From Myxococcales bacterium (GTDB taxonomy: Bacteria > Myxococcota_A > Polyangia > Polyangiales > Polyangiaceae): a stretch of DNA of 64,000 bases. A model generated the notes under the pieces. That model did no database searches. It was given only the letters and a program-made list of their open reading frames with translations, and had not been told where the DNA came from. Below are positions 16,722-29,190 of this stretch, piece after piece; within the stretch, counting starts at the first letter, position 1; each line of letters starts with the position of its first letter. The position numbers and the translations under genes were made by a program. The stretch lies in assembly GCA_947473045.1 (NCBI GenBank), contig CANJCO010000010.1, positions 1 to 64,000 on the forward strand, read 5' to 3'.

Positions 16722-18350
16722 ATGCTCGATACGCCGATCGCCGTGCCCTGCCCCGTCAACGAAGCTGTGCTGTCTTACGCGCCTGGTTCGCCCGAGCGCG
16801 CCGCGCTCAAGTCGGCGCTCGCTGCGATGTCGGGCGATCAGCCGGATGTGCCTCATGTCATCGGCGGAAAAGAGTCGCGCGACGGCGCGAGCTTCGACGT
16901 GCTCGCTCCGCACAACCACGCGCACGTCATCGCGAAGGCGCACCACGGGGGCGCTGAAGCGGCGAAGCGCGCGATCGACGCTGCGCTCGCCGCGGCACCG
17001 GCCTGGGCAAACACTTCGTTCGACGAGCGCGCCCGGATCTTTACGCGCGCTGCCGAGCTGCTGGCAGGACCGTGGAGGCAGGTGCTCAACGCGGCGACCA
17101 TGCTCGGGCAGAGCAAGACCGCCTATCAGGCCGAGATCGACGCCTCGTGCGAGTTTATCGACTTTCTGCGCTTCAATGTTCACTTCGCGTCGCGCCTCGC
17201 CGAGCAGCCGATTTCGACCCCAGGCATTTCCAACGCGCTCGAGCTTCGCGGGCTCGAGGGGTTCGTGCTCGCGCTGACGCCCTTCAACTTCACCGCGATC
17301 GCCGGCAACCTGCCTGCTTCGCCGGCCCTGATGGGCAACGTCGTAGTGTGGAAGCCGGCCGAAGATCAGAGCCTCGCGGCGTTTCACACGATGCGCCTCT
17401 TCGAGGCGGCGGGCCTGCCGCCGGGCGTCATCAACGTCGTCTACGGCGACGGCGCGCCGGTCGCCGACGCGTGTCTGGCGAGCCGCGAGCTCGCGGGTAT
17501 TCATTTCACCGGCTCGACGCGCGTGTTTCAGCACCTGTGGCGTCAGGTGGGCGAGCGCGTCGCGAGCTACCGGAGCTACCCCCGCATCGTCGGCGAGACT
17601 GGCGGCAAAGACTTCGTGTTCGCGCACCCGTCGGCCGAGATCGAGGCGCTCGCAGTCGGCCTCGTGCGCGGCGCCTACGAGTTTCAAGGGCAAAAGTGCT
17701 CTGCGGCATCACGTGCCTATGTGCCGCGCTCGATGTGGCCGAAGCTCAAGGCGCTCCTGCTCGCGCACATCGCCGAGATCAAGGTGGGCGACGTGTCCGA
17801 CTTCTCCAACTTCATGGGCGCGGTCATCAACGAGCGCGCCTACGCGCGACTGTCCGGCTGGCGCGACCGCTTGAAAAATGATGCATCCTGCACGGTGTTG
17901 GCGGACGCCGGCTGGTCGCGCGAAGTCGGCTGGTTCTGCGGCCCCACGCTCGTCGAAGTAACGGACCCCGAGCACGCGCTCATGCAGGAAGAGCTCTTCG
18001 GGCCGGTGCTCGCCGTCTATGTCTACGACGACGCGCGCATCGACGAGACGCTCGCGCTGATCAACCGCACCAGCCCTTACGCGCTGACCGGCGCGATCTT
18101 CTCGCAGGACCGCGCAGCCGTCGCCCACGCAGCGCGCGTGCTGCGTCAGGCCGCGGGAAACTTGTACATCAACGACAAGCCGACCGGCGCGGTGGTCGGT
18201 CAGCAGCCGTTCGGCGGCGCGCGCGCCTCGGGCACCAACGACAAGGCGGGCAGCGCCTACAACTTGCTGCGGTGGGCCTCTCCGCGGACGGTGAAGGAGA
18301 CGTTCGTGCCGGCAACGAGCGTGGGCTACCCGTTCATGCGAGCGCCCTGA
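16722..18350 (+). CDS. L-glutamate gamma-semialdehyde (1-pyrroline-5-carboxylate) dehydrogenase
   Basis: The enzyme oxidises glutamate semialdehyde from proline breakdown to glutamate with NAD+. The 542-aa product matches the single-function P5C dehydrogenase type. The conserved pieces are ALTPFNFTAIAGNLP, the NAD-binding FTGSTRVFQHLW segment, GETGGKDFVFAHPSA with the general-base region, and FQGQKCSAASRAYVP (~321-335), where Cys is the catalytic nucleophile. The C-terminal QQPFGGARASGTNDKAG is also typical. No proline dehydrogenase was found in the window. Start ATG 16722. Confidence 0.95.
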   Translation: MLDTPIAVPCPVNEAVLSYAPGSPERAALKSALAAMSGDQPDVPHVIGGKESRDGASFDVLAPHNHAHVIAKAHHGGAEAAKRAIDAALAAAPAWANTSFDERARIFTRAAELLAGPWRQVLNAATMLGQSKTAYQAEIDASCEFIDFLRFNVHFASRLAEQPISTPGISNALELRGLEGFVLALTPFNFTAIAGNLPASPALMGNVVVWKPAEDQSLAAFHTMRLFEAAGLPPGVINVVYGDGAPVADACLASRELAGIHFTGSTRVFQHLWRQVGERVASYRSYPRIVGETGGKDFVFAHPSAEIEALAVGLVRGAYEFQGQKCSAASRAYVPRSMWPKLKALLLAHIAEIKVGDVSDFSNFMGAVINERAYARLSGWRDRLKNDASCTVLADAGWSREVGWFCGPTLVEVTDPEHALMQEELFGPVLAVYVYDDARIDETLALINRTSPYALTGAIFSQDRAAVAHAARVLRQAAGNLYINDKPTGAVVGQQPFGGARASGTNDKAGSAYNLLRWASPRTVKETFVPATSVGYPFMRAP

Positions 18351-18395
18351 TCCCCCCGCGCACGACCCGATGAGCCGCGCGACGGGAGGGCTCGT

Positions 18396-20294
18396 TTAGT
18401 AACCTCCGCCTCCACCTTGCGGCGGGCCGCCGTAGGGTGGCTGGCCGCCGGCGTACGGCGCCTGCCCGCCATATCCGCCGCCGCCGTACGGAGGCGCACC
18501 GCCCGCGACTACGGGCCTCGGCGGAGGTTGGGCGCTCTTGCGCTTGCCGCCGCCCCCACCGCCGCTACCGCCGCGCGTGAGCACGACGATCAGCGCGCCA
18601 ATCACGAGCACGCCGCCGCCGATCCCCGCGAACAGCAACCACGCGAGCGGCTTCTTCTCTGCCTTGAGCGTGAGCACATTTTTGACGTCGTGCCCGCTCG
18701 CGCGCTTGGCGCCGTTGTCGTAGACAATCACGTGCGCGACCGTGTTCTCGCCCGTTCCCTCGAGCCATTTGTCTTCGTCGGGCGCCTGAAACGTGACGAA
18801 CGTATCGCTCGCTTCGGTCGCGCTCCCGCGCATGTTCTGGCTGATGAGCGACTGCATCGCGTTGCGAACGCTGAGCGGATCGGGATCGCTCATCTTCGGA
18901 TCGGGCTGCGTGCCTGCCGGAATAAAATAAGCCTCCGCGCGCGTCTTTTCGCCAGCCCAGCAAAAGTTGCCGAACACCTTGAAAAGGCCGCCCGGGTGCA
19001 CAGGGTTGACGTCGGTCTCGGCTTTCGTCTTCGCGTAGTCGATGTCGAGCGGCCACTGGGAAGGGTCTACGCCGATCGGCACTTCCTTGAAGGTCGAGTC
19101 GCCGACGATCTGCGGATTCACGCGCTGAAAGTTGAGCGCGAACGACTGCTCGGGCGACAGGTTCAAGCACGCGAGGCGCCACTTCACGATGTACATCGCG
19201 TCGAAGCGCTTCTTCACTGCGCGGACGATTTTCTGACCGCGCACCGCGCCCTGCCCGGCGCGTACGGCGTCGTAGAATCCGCCGATTTTCGTGTTGGCGA
19301 GCGCCTGCATGAACTGCGCGTCGTTGGTGCGGTAAATGTCGTTCGTCAGGCTCGATGCGTTCGGGAACCAGACGCTCACGACCGGCAGCGGCGTTTTGGG
19401 AGCCGAGGTGTTGTCCTCGGGGAAGCGCCCCTTGTTCATGTACTGCGCGAACACCTCGGCCGTCGGCGACGCGCTCGCGGGATCTCCGCGACCGGCACCG
19501 TTCGACAACATGACGAGCGACTGGTGCAGCGGAATCGACGCAAGCGACGGACCGCCGGCGTTACCGAGGTTGCCGAAGCCGTCCGCCACGAGGCCCTTGA
19601 CGATCGAAAACAGCGCGCGGTCGCGGCCACGGGCCGGCTGAACCTGGCGGACGGCGTCGAGCGCCGCGACGAGGTCGTTGCGCTTCTTGTACGTCACCCA
19701 GTGCGAGTCACCGACGTACTGGTGCTCGTTGGTGTCGAAGATGATGATCTCCATGAGATCGTTGGGCTGCATCGCCTCGATGAACGAATGCGCCACGGCC
19801 CGGGCGTCTTCGTATCGGCCGCCCATGCCGCTCGAAGCGTCGAGCGCGACGAGCCACGCGGTGCCTACGTTCGGCTCCTTCTGTGAGTCGCCCCAGCGCA
19901 TCGCGTTGCCCTCGGGCATCGCCGGCACGTCGGACCCGTTGACCTTCACGGTAAAGATCGCGTTTCCGAGCGGAAAGCCTTTGTTGGCATCGCCCGGCTG
20001 CGGCTTACCCAGAGGACTCCACAGAACGCCGTCTTTTTCCATTTGATCGCTGCCGCAATCAAGGGCGTCGTTCGGCGGAAGATTGGCGCACTGCGCGAGG
20101 GCGGCCGACGGCGAATTGAACTGCACGAGCTCGACCACGGTGGTGAGCAGAGGCTGGCCGCCGTTGATGCCTGCCCGCGGATCGATGCGGAGAATGTGCG
20201 CTTCTGGCACCGCAAGCGCTGAGCCGCTGAGCGCGACGCACGCCGCACCGACCGCAAAGGCGGGGATGAAGCGGATGAACATGTTTCGGGTCAT
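18396..20294 (-). CDS. VWA-domain membrane protein with Gly/Tyr/Pro-rich tail
   Basis: A 632-aa exported protein. Residues 1-28 are a signal peptide (ends SALAVP). Residues ~145-390 resemble a von Willebrand A domain; the metal-site motif reads DASSGMGG instead of the usual DxSxSM, so metal binding may be weak or altered. A single helix (~553-577) is followed by a cytoplasmic tail rich in Gly, Tyr and Pro (GGGGYGGQ, GGPPQGGGGGY). It lies 17 bp downstream of the FHA gene on the same strand, so the two are probably one operon. Function unknown; assembly or surface sensing is a guess. Confidence 0.8.
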   Translation of the reverse strand: MTRNMFIRFIPAFAVGAACVALSGSALAVPEAHILRIDPRAGINGGQPLLTTVVELVQFNSPSAALAQCANLPPNDALDCGSDQMEKDGVLWSPLGKPQPGDANKGFPLGNAIFTVKVNGSDVPAMPEGNAMRWGDSQKEPNVGTAWLVALDASSGMGGRYEDARAVAHSFIEAMQPNDLMEIIIFDTNEHQYVGDSHWVTYKKRNDLVAALDAVRQVQPARGRDRALFSIVKGLVADGFGNLGNAGGPSLASIPLHQSLVMLSNGAGRGDPASASPTAEVFAQYMNKGRFPEDNTSAPKTPLPVVSVWFPNASSLTNDIYRTNDAQFMQALANTKIGGFYDAVRAGQGAVRGQKIVRAVKKRFDAMYIVKWRLACLNLSPEQSFALNFQRVNPQIVGDSTFKEVPIGVDPSQWPLDIDYAKTKAETDVNPVHPGGLFKVFGNFCWAGEKTRAEAYFIPAGTQPDPKMSDPDPLSVRNAMQSLISQNMRGSATEASDTFVTFQAPDEDKWLEGTGENTVAHVIVYDNGAKRASGHDVKNVLTLKAEKKPLAWLLFAGIGGGVLVIGALIVVLTRGGSGGGGGGKRKSAQPPPRPVVAGGAPPYGGGGYGGQAPYAGGQPPYGGPPQGGGGGY

Positions 20295-20311
20295 CGAGAC
20301 CGCCCGCGCGC

Positions 20312-21424
20312 TCAGAGGCGCCCGACGATCTTCACGAGCGTCGTGAAGCCGCCGAAGCGCAGCTTGTCGCCGTCGGCGAGGGCCCGTCGCCCGCCCTGTC
20401 CGATCGGGTCTTCGTTGACGTAAGTGCCGTTGGTCGAGCCGGTGTCTTCGACGACGACCGTGCCCGCGACGCTGTCGATGTGCAGCGCTGCGTGACGCGA
20501 GGAGATCGTCGCATCCGCGAGCGAAATGTCGACATCGACCCCGGAATTCGCCCGCCCGACGCTCACGCGACCGCCCTTGAGCGCCCAGAACTCACCGTTG
20601 GACGTCGTTTGATACGACACCAGAAATCCGCGCACAGCCGTCGCGCTCGGCTGCTGAACGCCCGGAGCCGCAGGCTCGGTCGGCCCTGCGCCAAACGCGG
20701 CGGGAGCCGGCGCGGGAGCAGGCGCGGGAGCGGGAGCCGGCGCCGCGTACGCGTTTTGCGGAGGCGCCGCATACGCGGGCGCAGGAGCAGCGCCGCCGTA
20801 CGCGTTGGGAGGCGATGCTCCGTACATGTCGTTGTTGATCTGCATCGCCTGCATGGCGATCGGATGGCCGTGCGCGCAGTAGCTCGCGCCAGGCGCAATT
20901 TCATGTCCATTTTGGCAGGTCGCGGCCGCGGGAGCACCGTAGCCCTGCTGCGCCGCGGGAACACCGTAGCCCTGCTGCGCCGCGGGAACACCGTAGCCCT
21001 GCTGCGCCGCGGGAACACCGTAGCCCTGCTGCGCCGCGGGAGCACCGTAGCCCTGCTGCGGCGCCGGAGCACCGTAGCCCTGCTGCGGCGCCGGAGCACC
21101 GTAGCCCTGCTGCGGCGCGGGAGCCCCGTAGCCCTGCTGCGGCGCGGGAGCACCGTAACCCTGCTGCGGCGCGGGAGCCCCGTAACCATCCTGCGGCGCA
21201 CCGAAACCCTGTTGCGGAGGGCTTCCGAAACCCTGCGGCTGCGACCCAAACCCCTGTTGCTGCGGCGCGCCGAAACCCTGCGGCGGGGCACCAAACCCCT
21301 GCGGCGCGGGAGCGGCCGGCGGAGGCGCTTGCGGCGCTTGCGGCTGGCTCAGCAGAAATCCGCACGAGTTGCAGAACTTGTCGGTCGCCTTTGCGGGCGT
21401 TCCGCACTGCGGGCATGCGCTCAT
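20312..21424 (-). CDS. FHA-domain protein with N-terminal zinc ribbon and GYG repeats
   Basis: A 370-aa cytoplasmic protein. Residues 1-22 form a zinc ribbon (CPQC...CNSC). Residues ~30-82 are Pro/Gln/Gly/Phe-rich; ~83-163 are nine 9-residue repeats of the APAPQQGYG type. A second Cys/His cluster follows (~167-190: CQNGHEI...CAHGHPI), then an Ala/Pro linker and a C-terminal FHA domain (~265-365) with GRANSG, SSRHAAL and [11 protein letters not shown], the phosphothreonine-binding set. It should recognise a phosphorylated partner, perhaps a substrate of a Ser/Thr kinase. I start at ATG 21424; upstream in-frame sequence is not protein-like. Confidence 0.9.
20936..21178 (-). repeat. 27-bp tandem coding repeat (nine units)
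   Basis: Nine consecutive 27-bp units encode five copies of APAPQQGYG, one APAAQQGYG and three VPAAQQGYG. Units of each type are nearly identical at the DNA level, which points to recent local duplication. The array is in frame inside the FHA gene. Confidence 0.93.
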
Positions 21425-21520: not shown

Positions 21521-22795
21521 TCAGCCGTAGGCCACGAGCGCCGCGCGCACGACCTCCCGAACCGGCACGCCGTGGGCGGCGGCGGCGCGAACGCAGTCGT
21601 CGAACTCGGGCTTGACCTGGGCAGGACCGAACGGTCCCTCTGCAACTTTGACTGCGATAATCCCGTACTTCGTCGACACCTCCACCATCCGGCGGGGCCG
21701 TTCGACGCGCGCGACCTCGTAGCGGCGCACGCCCAGGCTCGTGGTGTCGCGCAACATCGCCGACGCGACGCCGTCGGCCGCCGACTGCGGCGCGATGGCC
21801 GAGAGCGTGACGGCCGGGCGGCCTTTTTTCATGGTGATCGGCGTCGCCCACGCGTCGAGCGCACCCGCGGCAAACAGCGACTCCAGCGCAACCGCCACCA
21901 GCTCGCCCGTCGCGTCGTCGAGGTTGGCCTCGAGCACGACGTGCGATCGCTCGGCCTGCGGGCTCGGATCGCCGAGGACCGCGCGCAGCAGATTCGGCCT
22001 GTCGGCGAGGTTCGCCGTGCCCGCCCCCCAACCGACCGCGAGCGGCGTCATCGTGGGCCAGCGCTGGCTCGACTCGGCCGAGCCCGCAACGATCGCGGCG
22101 CCCGTCGGGGTCACAAGCTCGAACTCGATCCCCGCATCGTACGTCTCGAAGCCGCGCAAGCACTCGACCACCGCGGGTGGCGGCAGCGGCAGCACCCCGT
22201 GGCGCGCCTTGACGAAGCCCCGGCCCATCGGCAGCGGCGACACCACCACGCGCGCGCCGAGGTGCTCGAGCGCGGCAGCGGCACCGACGACGTCGACGAT
22301 CGCGTCAACCGCGCCCACCTCGTGAAAGTGCACGTCGTCGATCGGCATGCGGTGAACTTTGCACTCGGACTCGGCGAGGCGTCGGAAGATGCGCTGCGCG
22401 CGCTCGCGAATCGCAGGGTCGAGGTTCGCCGCGGCCAGCATGTCGCGAATCGAGGCGTAGGTGCGCTCGGGTTGCGGCTCGCTGACGTGAACGTCGAAGT
22501 GCGTCGCGACCACGCCGCTCTTGATGCGCGACGAAAAATGCAGGTGAAAGCCGCGCAGCGGCAGCGCGAAGACGGCCATCTCGACGGCCCGCGTGGGCAC
22601 GCCGAGATCGACGAGCGCGGCGATGGTCATGTCCCCCGCGAGCCCGCTCGGCGCGTCGAGAAACAGCAGCTTTCCGGAGCCTGCGCCCGCCGGCAGGTCC
22701 GGGCGCACGAGGTTCAGCGGTTGCGCCGAATCGCTGTGGGTGTGCGCGTGACTGTCGCCCTGCGCTGGGAGGTGATCGTGGCCTTCGTGCGCCAT
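21521..22795 (-). CDS. larC: nickel-pincer cofactor synthesis protein LarC with His-rich N-terminus
   Basis: LarC inserts nickel into the pyridinium bis-thiocarboxylate precursor to form the nickel-pincer nucleotide cofactor of lactate racemase-type enzymes. The 424-aa product has the family sequence SGLAGDMTIAALVDLG (~50-65), DDVHFHEVGAVDAIVD (~150-165), VTPTGAAI and LEANLDDATGE. It is one continuous frame, unlike the lactobacillar gene, where the two parts are joined by frameshifting. The first ~25 residues contain seven His (GHDHL, SHAHTH), a plausible metal-binding extension. The gene follows the acyltransferase gene by 15 bp. No LarA or LarE was found in the window. Confidence 0.93.
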   Translation of the reverse strand: MAHEGHDHLPAQGDSHAHTHSDSAQPLNLVRPDLPAGAGSGKLLFLDAPSGLAGDMTIAALVDLGVPTRAVEMAVFALPLRGFHLHFSSRIKSGVVATHFDVHVSEPQPERTYASIRDMLAAANLDPAIRERAQRIFRRLAESECKVHRMPIDDVHFHEVGAVDAIVDVVGAAAALEHLGARVVVSPLPMGRGFVKARHGVLPLPPPAVVECLRGFETYDAGIEFELVTPTGAAIVAGSAESSQRWPTMTPLAVGWGAGTANLADRPNLLRAVLGDPSPQAERSHVVLEANLDDATGELVAVALESLFAAGALDAWATPITMKKGRPAVTLSAIAPQSAADGVASAMLRDTTSLGVRRYEVARVERPRRMVEVSTKYGIIAVKVAEGPFGPAQVKPEFDDCVRAAAAHGVPVREVVRAALVAYG

Positions 22796-26692: not shown

Positions 26693-27667
26693 TTACTCGA
26701 ACGCGACGCAGTTTCGGCCTTGCGATTTCGCCTTGTAGAGCCGCTCGTCGGCGAGGAGCAGCAGCATGTCGCCGGTCGCGTGCTGGCCGCACTCTTCGAT
26801 CGAAGCAAGGCCTGCGCTCACCGTGACGCGCGCAGAATCGCCGAGGTGGGGGACCGGCAGCGCCTGAATCCCCGCGCGAATGCGCTCGCCCAAAATAAGC
26901 AGGTGCGACTGCGGCAGGCTGCGCGTGAGGAGCACGAACTCCTCGCCGCCGTAGCGCGCAAGCACGTCTTCGGCGCGTATCAGCTTTCCGACGCAGTCGC
27001 TCACCTGCCGCAAGACGACATCGCCCGCCTGATGGCCGTGGGCGTCGTTGATCATCTTGAAGTGGTCGATGTCGAAGAGCACGAGGCCGACGTTCGACTT
27101 GTGGCGGTGCGCGAACGCGACCTCCGAGATGAGTCGCTCGTTGAAGTAGCGGCGGTTGTAGAGGCCCGACAGCGCGTCACGCGTCGAGGCTTCGTAGAGC
27201 TGGCGCGCGAGCCGCTCTTCGGTCTCATCGACGATCGCGAAGCGAAAGACGACGGCGGCACCAAGGTGCAGGCGATCGCCGGGAAACAACTCGCACTGCG
27301 CGACCCGCACGCCGTTGACCCACGTGCCGTTGCGCGACCCGGCGTCAATTACCCGGTAGATCGAGCCCTCGCGAACGATTCGCGCGTGATCGCGGCTGAG
27401 CCCTGCATCTTCGAGGCGTATCTGAGAGGTCACGCTTCGACCGAGCGTGGCCGCAGCGCCGTCGATAGAAAACACCTGACCCGCGTTGAGTCCGGTGAGC
27501 AGCGTGAGCGTCGCGCGCTCGTGGCGCAGCGCAGGCGCAGCGGCGATGATCTGCTCGAGCGTGGAAGGCGTGGTGACCGACACATCGTCGCTCGGCGGCG
27601 GCGGGAACGTCGACAGCGCGCCGCGCACGATTTCAAACGGCTGTTCAGGCGTGAGATTGCGGTTCAT
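26693..27667 (-). CDS. FHA-GGDEF diguanylate cyclase
   Basis: A soluble 324-aa protein that should make cyclic di-GMP under control of a phosphothreonine signal. The N-terminal FHA domain (~52-145) has LGRSVTS, LSRDHARI and DAGSRNGTWVNG. The GGDEF domain (~160-322) has active-site GGEEF and an I-site RxxD (RAED) five residues upstream. The same architecture is known in the Bdellovibrio cyclase DgcB. Its ATG overlaps the stop of the GH1 lipoprotein gene (ATGA at 27664-27667), so the two are translationally coupled. Upstream in-frame sequence belongs to the antisense of that gene. Confidence 0.93.
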   Translation of the reverse strand: MNRNLTPEQPFEIVRGALSTFPPPPSDDVSVTTPSTLEQIIAAAPALRHERATLTLLTGLNAGQVFSIDGAAATLGRSVTSQIRLEDAGLSRDHARIVREGSIYRVIDAGSRNGTWVNGVRVAQCELFPGDRLHLGAAVVFRFAIVDETEERLARQLYEASTRDALSGLYNRRYFNERLISEVAFAHRHKSNVGLVLFDIDHFKMINDAHGHQAGDVVLRQVSDCVGKLIRAEDVLARYGGEEFVLLTRSLPQSHLLILGERIRAGIQALPVPHLGDSARVTVSAGLASIEECGQHATGDMLLLLADERLYKAKSQGRNCVAFE

Positions 27668-29190
27668 GGCGCGCACAGGGTTGGCGCGCCGTAAGCGGGC
27701 AGCGCGTCGATGTCGGACTTCTTCACGGCGTTGGCCGCGATGATTTGGCCGTAGGTCTGCGCGCTGGCGCGGGGCGTACGCGCGCCGGTCGCGGGATCGT
27801 AGGACACGAGTCCGAACCGCGGGCAGAACCCGCTCGCCCACTCGAAGTTGTCGATCAGCGCCCAGTGAAAATACCCGCGCACATCGACCCCGCGCGCCCG
27901 GGCCCAGCCCAGCTGATACAAGTGCTCGGCGATGAAGCGCGCGCGCATCACGTCTTTGCTGTCGGCGACGCCGTTTTCGGTGATCACGACGGGCAGCGCG
28001 TAGGGCTTGAGCTCATCGAGCACGATGCCCAGGCCTTCGGGATAGATGTCCCACCCGAAGTCGCTGCGTGGTCGACCCGTGGCGAGGCCGTCCTGGTAGA
28101 CTGCAGCGTTGACGACGGGCACCTTCACGCCGCGCGAAGCGCTGATGAGCGTGTCGGAGTAGTAGTTGGCGCCGATGTAGTCGGCTCGGCCCTTGAGCGA
28201 CGGATCCGCCGCCTTGTCGTTCGGCCCGTCGAGCTTGCCGTTGAAATCGTCGTCCCAGTCGCCGCGGATCACCGCGTTCAAGAACCAGTCGTTCCACAGG
28301 TAGCGCACGCGATCGGCGGCCGCCTGATCGTCGGCGTTGCCCTCTTCGTAGGCGTGAAACGTACGCAGGTGCGCCGCGTAGCTGACCAGCGCCGCTTTGC
28401 CGTCGCCGTCCGCGTCCTGCGTGTCGGCGGCGTGAATCGCGTCGAAGCAGCGGGCATGGGCCCGAGCTTCGTTCCTGGCCACGAGCAGCGCGCGATCCAT
28501 CGACAGCAGGAGCCCGGGAGGAAACGACCCCTGCACGTAACCGCCGAGCATGAGGTTCAGCGGCTCGTTGATGGTGACCCACCAGTCAGTCATCGCGCCG
28601 AACCGCGTCGCCATGCGCGAGCAGTACTGCGTAAAGAGCGTGGTGGTCTCGGGACGTTCCCAGCCTTGCGGCTGCGTCGGGGCGCTCACGTCGCTCAGGT
28701 AGTCGGGCAGCGCAAAGTGCTGCAGCGTCACCATCGGCGTAATGCCGGCGAGCTTCAATTTTTGCAGCAGCGAGGCGTAGGCCGCCAGGGCCGCGGCGTC
28801 GGGCTGGTCGGCATCGAACGCCGCTCGCGTGGGATACACGCGGTTCCACTCGATCGAAAAACGGTACGCGGTCTGGCCGGTGGCCTTGAGCGCCGCGATG
28901 TCATCGTCGATGTGCGCCAGCGCGTCGGGGCCGCCTACGTCGGGCTTGTCGGCATTTTTGATCTTGCCGGGGAGCTGCGCCCAGTGGCCCCAGTCGCTCG
29001 TCGCGTTGCCCTTCTCGACTTGAAAGCCCGCCGTGGCCGAGCCCCACAGCATGCCCGTGGGGAAGTCGACCTGAGCGGGGGCCGGCGGACCGGCATCGAT
29101 CGCGGGCGGCGTGGACGCGGTCGAGCACGCGGCCGAGCACGCCGCGAAAGCGACTCCGAAAGCGACTCCAACGGCGAAACGACGGCGCAT
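27664..29190 (-). CDS. GH1 family glycosidase (beta-glucosidase-like), lipoprotein
   Basis: A 508-aa glycoside hydrolase family 1 enzyme that hydrolyses beta-linked glucosides or related sugars. A signal peptide precedes a lipobox-like AACS (~Cys 18-22), so it is probably anchored in the envelope. The GH1 fold starts FPTGMLWGSATAGFQVE (~43). The acid/base is Glu in TINEPL (E209), and the nucleophile is Glu in VITENG (~410). I chose ATG 29190 (MRRRFAVG). Another ATG lies 21 bases upstream. Export of a GH1 enzyme as a lipoprotein is not usual. Confidence 0.92.
   Translation of the reverse strand: MRRRFAVGVAFGVAFAACSAACSTASTPPAIDAGPPAPAQVDFPTGMLWGSATAGFQVEKGNATSDWGHWAQLPGKIKNADKPDVGGPDALAHIDDDIAALKATGQTAYRFSIEWNRVYPTRAAFDADQPDAAALAAYASLLQKLKLAGITPMVTLQHFALPDYLSDVSAPTQPQGWERPETTTLFTQYCSRMATRFGAMTDWWVTINEPLNLMLGGYVQGSFPPGLLLSMDRALLVARNEARAHARCFDAIHAADTQDADGDGKAALVSYAAHLRTFHAYEEGNADDQAAADRVRYLWNDWFLNAVIRGDWDDDFNGKLDGPNDKAADPSLKGRADYIGANYYSDTLISASRGVKVPVVNAAVYQDGLATGRPRSDFGWDIYPEGLGIVLDELKPYALPVVITENGVADSKDVMRARFIAEHLYQLGWARARGVDVRGYFHWALIDNFEWASGFCPRFGLVSYDPATGARTPRASAQTYGQIIAANAVKKSDIDALPAYGAPTLCAP

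Follow-up and report, generated by a model that had tools for sequence, protein, structure and literature searches.

The window, i.e., the whole stretch of 64,000 nucleotides analyzed here, encodes an FHA protein and, 17 bp further on the same (minus) strand, a membrane protein with a VWA domain (Table 1). This layout supports the single operon to which the initial annotation had assigned the two genes. The upstream neighbor (21521–22795, minus strand) codes for LarC (Ni_insertion), whose family we take to be DUF111; the LarC1 and LarC2 models match one continuous ORF, the two parts being fused. Another FHA protein of the window (26693–27841, minus strand) has, by eye, an FHA domain followed by a GGDEF-like domain.

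Table 1. Features of the FHA/VWA gene pair, in window coordinates
Feature	Position	Strand	Description and basis
FHA gene	20312..21424	-	370 aa; zinc ribbon, Gly/Tyr/Pro/Gln repeat tract, second Cys/His motif, FHA domain; Pfam, ORF list, sequence
Zinc ribbon, N-terminal, FHA protein aa 4-23	21356..21415	-	Pfam Zn_Ribbon_1, E 6.8e-7
27-bp tandem array encoding nine [AV]PA[AP]QQGYG units	20922..21199	-	TRF, 10.3 copies, 94% matches; units counted
Second Cys/His motif (CQNGH..YCAHGH), FHA protein aa 170-192	20849..20917	-	Zinc-finger-like by eye
FHA domain, FHA protein aa 287-358	20351..20566	-	PF00498, E 5.3e-16
VWA membrane protein, short form only	18396..20294	-	632 aa; ORF list
VWA fold, aa 135-371	19182..19892	-	Metal site degenerate (DxSxG, SNG); AlphaFold, structure comparison, alignment A1
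Single transmembrane helix, aa about 550-573	18576..18647	-	Sequence, by eye
Gly/Tyr/Pro tail, aa 574-632	18399..18575	-	Linker remnant; tails of relatives, survey
Gap of 45 bp between VWA stop and convergent aldehyde dehydrogenase (16722-18350)	18351..18395	.	ORF list; enzyme name by eye

The FHA protein contains exactly nine [AV]PA[AP]QQGYG units by sequence count, as previously annotated, and five GFG units share the tract with them. The second Cys/His motif, which had gone unnoticed, follows the repeats and precedes the FHA domain; motifs of the CxxGH type are found in 30 of the 83 tracts surveyed. Membership in the FHA family follows from the profile match, and GR, SSRH, and NGT can be seen by eye, the hallmarks of the domain being Gly-Arg, Ser..His, and Asn-Gly. 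The genome has 42 FHA matches and 114 kinase-domain matches. Among eight other FHA loci taken from these 42 as a control, for some of which the ORF picker is possibly in the wrong frame, the Gly/Pro/Ala/Gln/Tyr fraction over 60 aa is 0.75 in one and 0.38–0.63 in the rest.

Pfam finds nothing over its cut-off in the VWA protein of the window (VWA_3, E 0.14), and no PDB sequence matches the VWA profile A1 at E ≤ 1. An AlphaFold model of moderate quality (mean pLDDT 67.9) matches VWA folds over residues 135–371 with Z of about 13–15, and Foldseek matches it to the ArnAB structure 8s05, at the level of the fold only. On this model the fold is clear and the naming of the protein as VWA holds. The canonical MIDAS (DxSxS, TDG) is absent: the window protein has DASSGM and LSNGAG, and the site is degenerate in the relatives of A1 too. 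By eye, the protein has a signal peptide and a single membrane helix, which predict that the VWA domain is outside and the tail inside. The final 61 residues (25 G, 11 P, 5 Y) include GGYGGQ, which confirms the Gly/Tyr-rich tail of the initial annotation, its helix and inside location being assigned by eye.

Matches to the VWA protein occur in 103 of the 108 genomes of the family, which named records (Polyangium fumosum and others) assign to the Polyangiaceae, and in 107 of the 183 genomes of the order; the four additional genomes all belong to one other family. In the stretches fetched around 100 of these matches, most relatives have the gene order of a Zn-ribbon/FHA gene, the VWA gene, a PP2C phosphatase gene, and an ABC exporter with three FHA domains. 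In the second family VWA-FHA, PP2C, and the exporter are kept in three of the four loci, and the fourth is incomplete. The VWA/FHA/PP2C/exporter module occurs in most of the Polyangiaceae; our literature search found no description of it. In five loci of genera g45 and g34 (L092, L119, L121, L128, and L129), the VWA proteins lack an FHA domain and no module gene was detected in the fetched stretch. A genus-mate of the window genome (G048) has the start of an FHA gene on contig C401:8816-9160, with 73% identity over query positions 1–125 and no VWA match; a contig break within the repeats is likely.

In the relatives' VWA protein the Gly/Tyr tract joins the membrane helix to a cytoplasmic C-terminal FHA domain (Pfam E 4.7e-12 in L041), which in much of the window's clade is preceded by a CxxC..CxxC zinc-ribbon-like motif, identified by eye. 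Because the protein of relatives runs on through the Gly-rich stretch to the FHA domain, the tail of the window protein is the stump of a linker. The window pair is a reduced copy of the Polyangiaceae module, with a VWA protein that stops inside its Gly/Tyr linker. The missing C-terminal FHA had been overlooked in the initial annotation; we found none in any frame downstream of the window VWA gene, nor does that gene contain a recoding site (no in-frame X_XXY_YYZ). The window genome (99.98% complete) lacks a PP2C orthologue, the best match having 39% identity. The exporter orthologue, 76% identical, is on another contig (G000:C7:111219-114215) and not beside the pair. A PADLOC search for defence systems gave no match, no plasmid copies of the pair were found, and an Rfam search of four loci gave no match.

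The two low-complexity tracts had been proposed to be matched self-associating partners that condense the FHA and VWA proteins. Both are indeed of low complexity, aromatic- and Gly-bearing, and this is the rule among relatives, where only two of the 77 VWA linkers of at least 30 aa lack any aromatic. There is also a precedent in Mycobacterium tuberculosis, where condensation of the FHA-linker-FHA segment of the exporter Rv1747 is reported to depend on a kinase (Heinkel 2019, cited in PMC9312465). However, across 83 loci neither the Tyr fractions (rho 0.11, p 0.33) nor the Gly fractions (rho 0.05, p 0.64) of the two tracts co-vary, Tyr is the leading aromatic in 28 of 79 FHA tracts and another residue in the remaining 51 (Phe 47, Trp 4), and the VWA tail is a linker stump. 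The matching of the tracts was rejected on this lack of co-variation, and such partnership now seems improbable. Flexible tethers with an aromatic-Gly pattern would explain the tracts without special matching, although these may still condense. The broader proposal of a phosphorylation-controlled assembly at the membrane gains plausibility from the ancestral neighborhood of PP2C and an FHA-ABC exporter, because part of Rv1747 condenses under kinase control (PMC9312465); the tail itself, however, is what is left of a linker that normally bears an FHA domain.

The junction between linker and C-terminal FHA is found in several states. After corrections for L100 and L107, whose FHA is cut by a contig end, the 101 loci divide into 67 that are continuous, 14 with the FHA domain in another frame, 12 without FHA, and eight cut by contig ends and excluded from the comparison of states. 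The loci without FHA include the window and its tree neighbor L040 (support 90). Among the shifted loci, eight require a +1 move (L045, L046, L050, L052, L059, L061, L104, and L107) and six a −1 move (L048, L053, L099, L100, L132, and L133). In the tree, 12 of the 14 fall inside a 35-row clade (SH-aLRT 100) that includes the window; L132 and L133 were left out of it, their cores being too short. In L096, an otherwise intact VWA gene contains one in-frame TAG.

Every shifted genome is a fragmented, multi-contig assembly and the linkers are GC-rich and repetitive, as would suit errors of sequencing or assembly, or gene decay. Yet errors should fall anywhere, and we found no frame break in 54,635 VWA-core, 54,639 ABC, 11,298 PP2C, and 8,396 FHA aligned amino acids (30-bit threshold, about 129,000 aligned residues of four proteins; this control misses L096), which argues that the breaks are not random errors. 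The other module genes at the shifted loci show no comparable breaks either, and the same slippery words recur across different genera. Furthermore, the frame downstream of the shift is under purifying selection: its dN/dS is 0.17, 0.06, and 0.41 in the FHA frame vs 4.2, 3.1, and 0.86 in the VWA frame, and 0.20 vs 0.45 in a fourth pair that is short and has saturated dS. Together with the nucleotide constraint in the unbroken genes of genus g36 (see following), this makes error or decay a highly improbable account of the breaks.

The FHA part could instead be a gene of its own, whose translation starts internally or is coupled to the VWA stop. A GTG overlaps the VWA stop (GTGA) in L048 and L132, where coupling is possible, and a TTG with AAGGAGG is a plausible internal start in the +1 loci L050 and L052, L107 having weak candidates. 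But in 11 of the 14 shifted loci, among them every −1 case, the FHA frame has no start codon with an SD-like sequence within 120 nt. A separate gene would also leave unexplained the CCCTTTA heptamers and their conservation in continuous genes, and we regard it as quite improbable.

All six −1 loci have an in-frame X_XXY_YYZ heptamer no more than two positions ahead of the stop; four have C_CCT_TTA, one has C_CCA_AAA, and one has C_CCT_TTC. L099 and L100 are from the same genus, and the six are thus not fully independent. Such heptamers occupy 12 of 42,096 background codon positions, none of these being CCCTTTA, and were found at 0 of 86 and 0 of 195 control ORF ends. The SD is unremarkable in three of the six loci, and the mean z of their downstream hairpins is only −0.84. 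L132 (genome G052) shifts at C_CCA_AAA_GCG_TGA and has a linker like that of other subclades (PEFMYG motif); its shift is possibly of independent origin. Recoding by −1 at C_CCU_UUA or a similar site, with two isoforms made, is strongly indicated for the window's clade.

The strongest evidence for the putative frameshifting is provided by the genes of g36, which are continuous. Before the zinc ribbon, 11 of the 12 genomes have C_CCT_TTA in frame and the 12th has C_CCT_TTT, in a genus where TTA is rare (10 of 1,244 Leu codons). Across the alignment neither GGAGG nor CCCTTT varies, and in 11 of 12 the gene's strongest anti-SD pairing is located 3–4 nt upstream of the heptamer (counted from the end of the scanned segment), L102 having one stronger place. 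Downstream lies a predicted 14-bp stem (mean hairpin z −2.61). No pair has changed on both sides; hence the case for the stem consists of energy and conservation. The nine most constrained of 462 windows of synonymous sites are on this element. Elsewhere, the constraint peaks outside the linker in g43 (Polyangium), g47, and g40, and at the linker motif EFMYG in g16 (n=3). The pattern GGAGGN{2,9}CCCTTTAG is present in 11 of the 12 g36 genomes, at one site each and always in the VWA gene, and has ten scattered hits across the remaining 96. A covariance model of the element searched against 40 sources recovers the 12 training loci and nothing else under E 0.01; since only the training loci match, the −1 loci of other genera lack the g36 hairpin. 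The predicted −1 product in g36 ends in a tail of 3–87 aa of no evident use.

The g36 element might be a pause site, or a regulatory site based on the rare codon TTA, without frameshifting: the reading frame is continuous, and the strong SD, the TTA codon, and the hairpin could each slow ribosomes. However, the heptamer is conserved throughout, CCT and the C before it included, and in related genera that share it the FHA domain is reached only through the −1 frame. Pausing on its own is thus a rather unlikely function for the element.

The eight +1 loci, from five genera, have their sites at one common protein position (AFPLTG), and in all eight the move is possible at TTT followed by C or T (UUU slipping to UUC or UUU). 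GGAGG[TC]GGG is found 16–21 nt upstream of every site. Because L050 and L052 read it in another frame, it is the nucleotides and not the amino acids of this sequence that are kept. It is present too in the continuous L041–L043 and L047 and in the −1 locus L133. In g42 (n=3), the most constrained synonymous windows include the +1-type SD, and a +1 slip would meet a stop two codons on (TTC CAT TGA), giving a short form. No structure was found downstream of the +1 sites (mean z −0.09), and the pattern is nonspecific, matching in 100 of 108 genomes, unlike the g36 pattern. Hence, +1 recoding at UUU_C possibly occurs in the window's clade, its signals being weaker than those for −1.

In conclusion, the window holds a reduced copy of the module, and its clade relatives probably recode the linker/FHA junction to make two isoforms; we give this combined reading a probability of about three in four. 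Programmed frameshifting that sets how much of the protein carries FHA and how much lacks it is, as far as sequences can tell, the best explanation of the shifted loci. We lean slightly toward a fuller version, in which the direction of programmed frameshifting (−1 or +1) differs among the genera of one family, the two frames exchange roles from genus to genus, and the slip so sets the share of the membrane sensor that carries a cytoplasmic phosphothreonine reader, the window lineage having fixed the short isoform.

Mechanistically, ribosomes would yield either VWA-TM with a disordered tail or VWA-TM with a cytoplasmic FHA. The extracytoplasmic VWA domain may sense or bind an envelope partner, while the cytoplasmic FHA domains would dock on phosphothreonines, the phosphate being added by a Ser/Thr kinase, of which there are many, and taken off by PP2C. 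Docking could gate or cluster the exporter, for which Rv1747 is a precedent (PMC9312465). Frameshifting would then fix the number of docking-competent VWA subunits, with the Pro/Gly/aromatic tracts acting as flexible tethers. The window genome would make solely the non-docking VWA isoform, beside a free FHA protein.

If this is true, the stoichiometry of a membrane signaling complex is fixed at the level of translation, and the family displays the evolution of recoding stepwise (fused, shifted −1, shifted +1, frame-swapped, lost) within one bacterial family. To our knowledge, programmed frameshifting is known in few cellular bacterial genes. The available parts of the literature cited here include no phosphosignaling receptor among frameshift genes, our literature search turned up no myxobacterial FHA or VWA gene with frameshifting, and the main text of the GeneTack paper names neither FHA nor von Willebrand nor Sorangium.

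In the −1 frameshift of dnaX, an SD, a slippery heptamer, and a downstream hairpin lead to short and long products of one gene. Unlike in dnaX, the heptamer here is C_CCU_UUA, the SD spacing is shorter, and the gene is one of signaling; also unlike dnaX, the slip would yield the short form in g36 and the long form in g9, g30, and g44. In prfB the SD is closely spaced, whereas in the +1 sites described here it is 16–21 nt away. The likeness to dnaX (PMC3711429) would lie in the SD, heptamer, and predicted hairpin of g36 and in the short and long products of one gene, the SD and stem being uneven in the six −1 loci. In the magnesium chelatase and DUF111 families, cellular bacterial genes are fused or frameshifted depending on the species (PMC3711429 and PMC5009743), and the VWA gene similarly has fused and apparently frameshifted states in different species. 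It differs from these families in its proteins and slip sites, and in having −1 and possibly +1 shifts within one family.

As for the proteins, ArnA has a zinc finger, and ArnB is not known to have a membrane helix or an FHA domain. The VWA domain described here, by contrast, is predicted to be extracytoplasmic and is linked to a membrane helix, with an FHA domain added in relatives. The pairing of an FHA with a vWA protein is shared with ArnA/ArnB of Sulfolobus acidocaldarius, where binding is through phosphorylation, ArnA binding the phosphorylated C-terminus of ArnB (PMC6509490). The Rv1747/PknF/PstP system differs in that the consulted sections of PMC9312465 report no VWA partner, such as is found here, and in that the exporter of the module has three FHA domains. 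It is nevertheless similar in combining an FHA-bearing ABC exporter with disordered linkers, Rv1747 being, in the same sections, under the control of a Ser/Thr kinase and a phosphatase.
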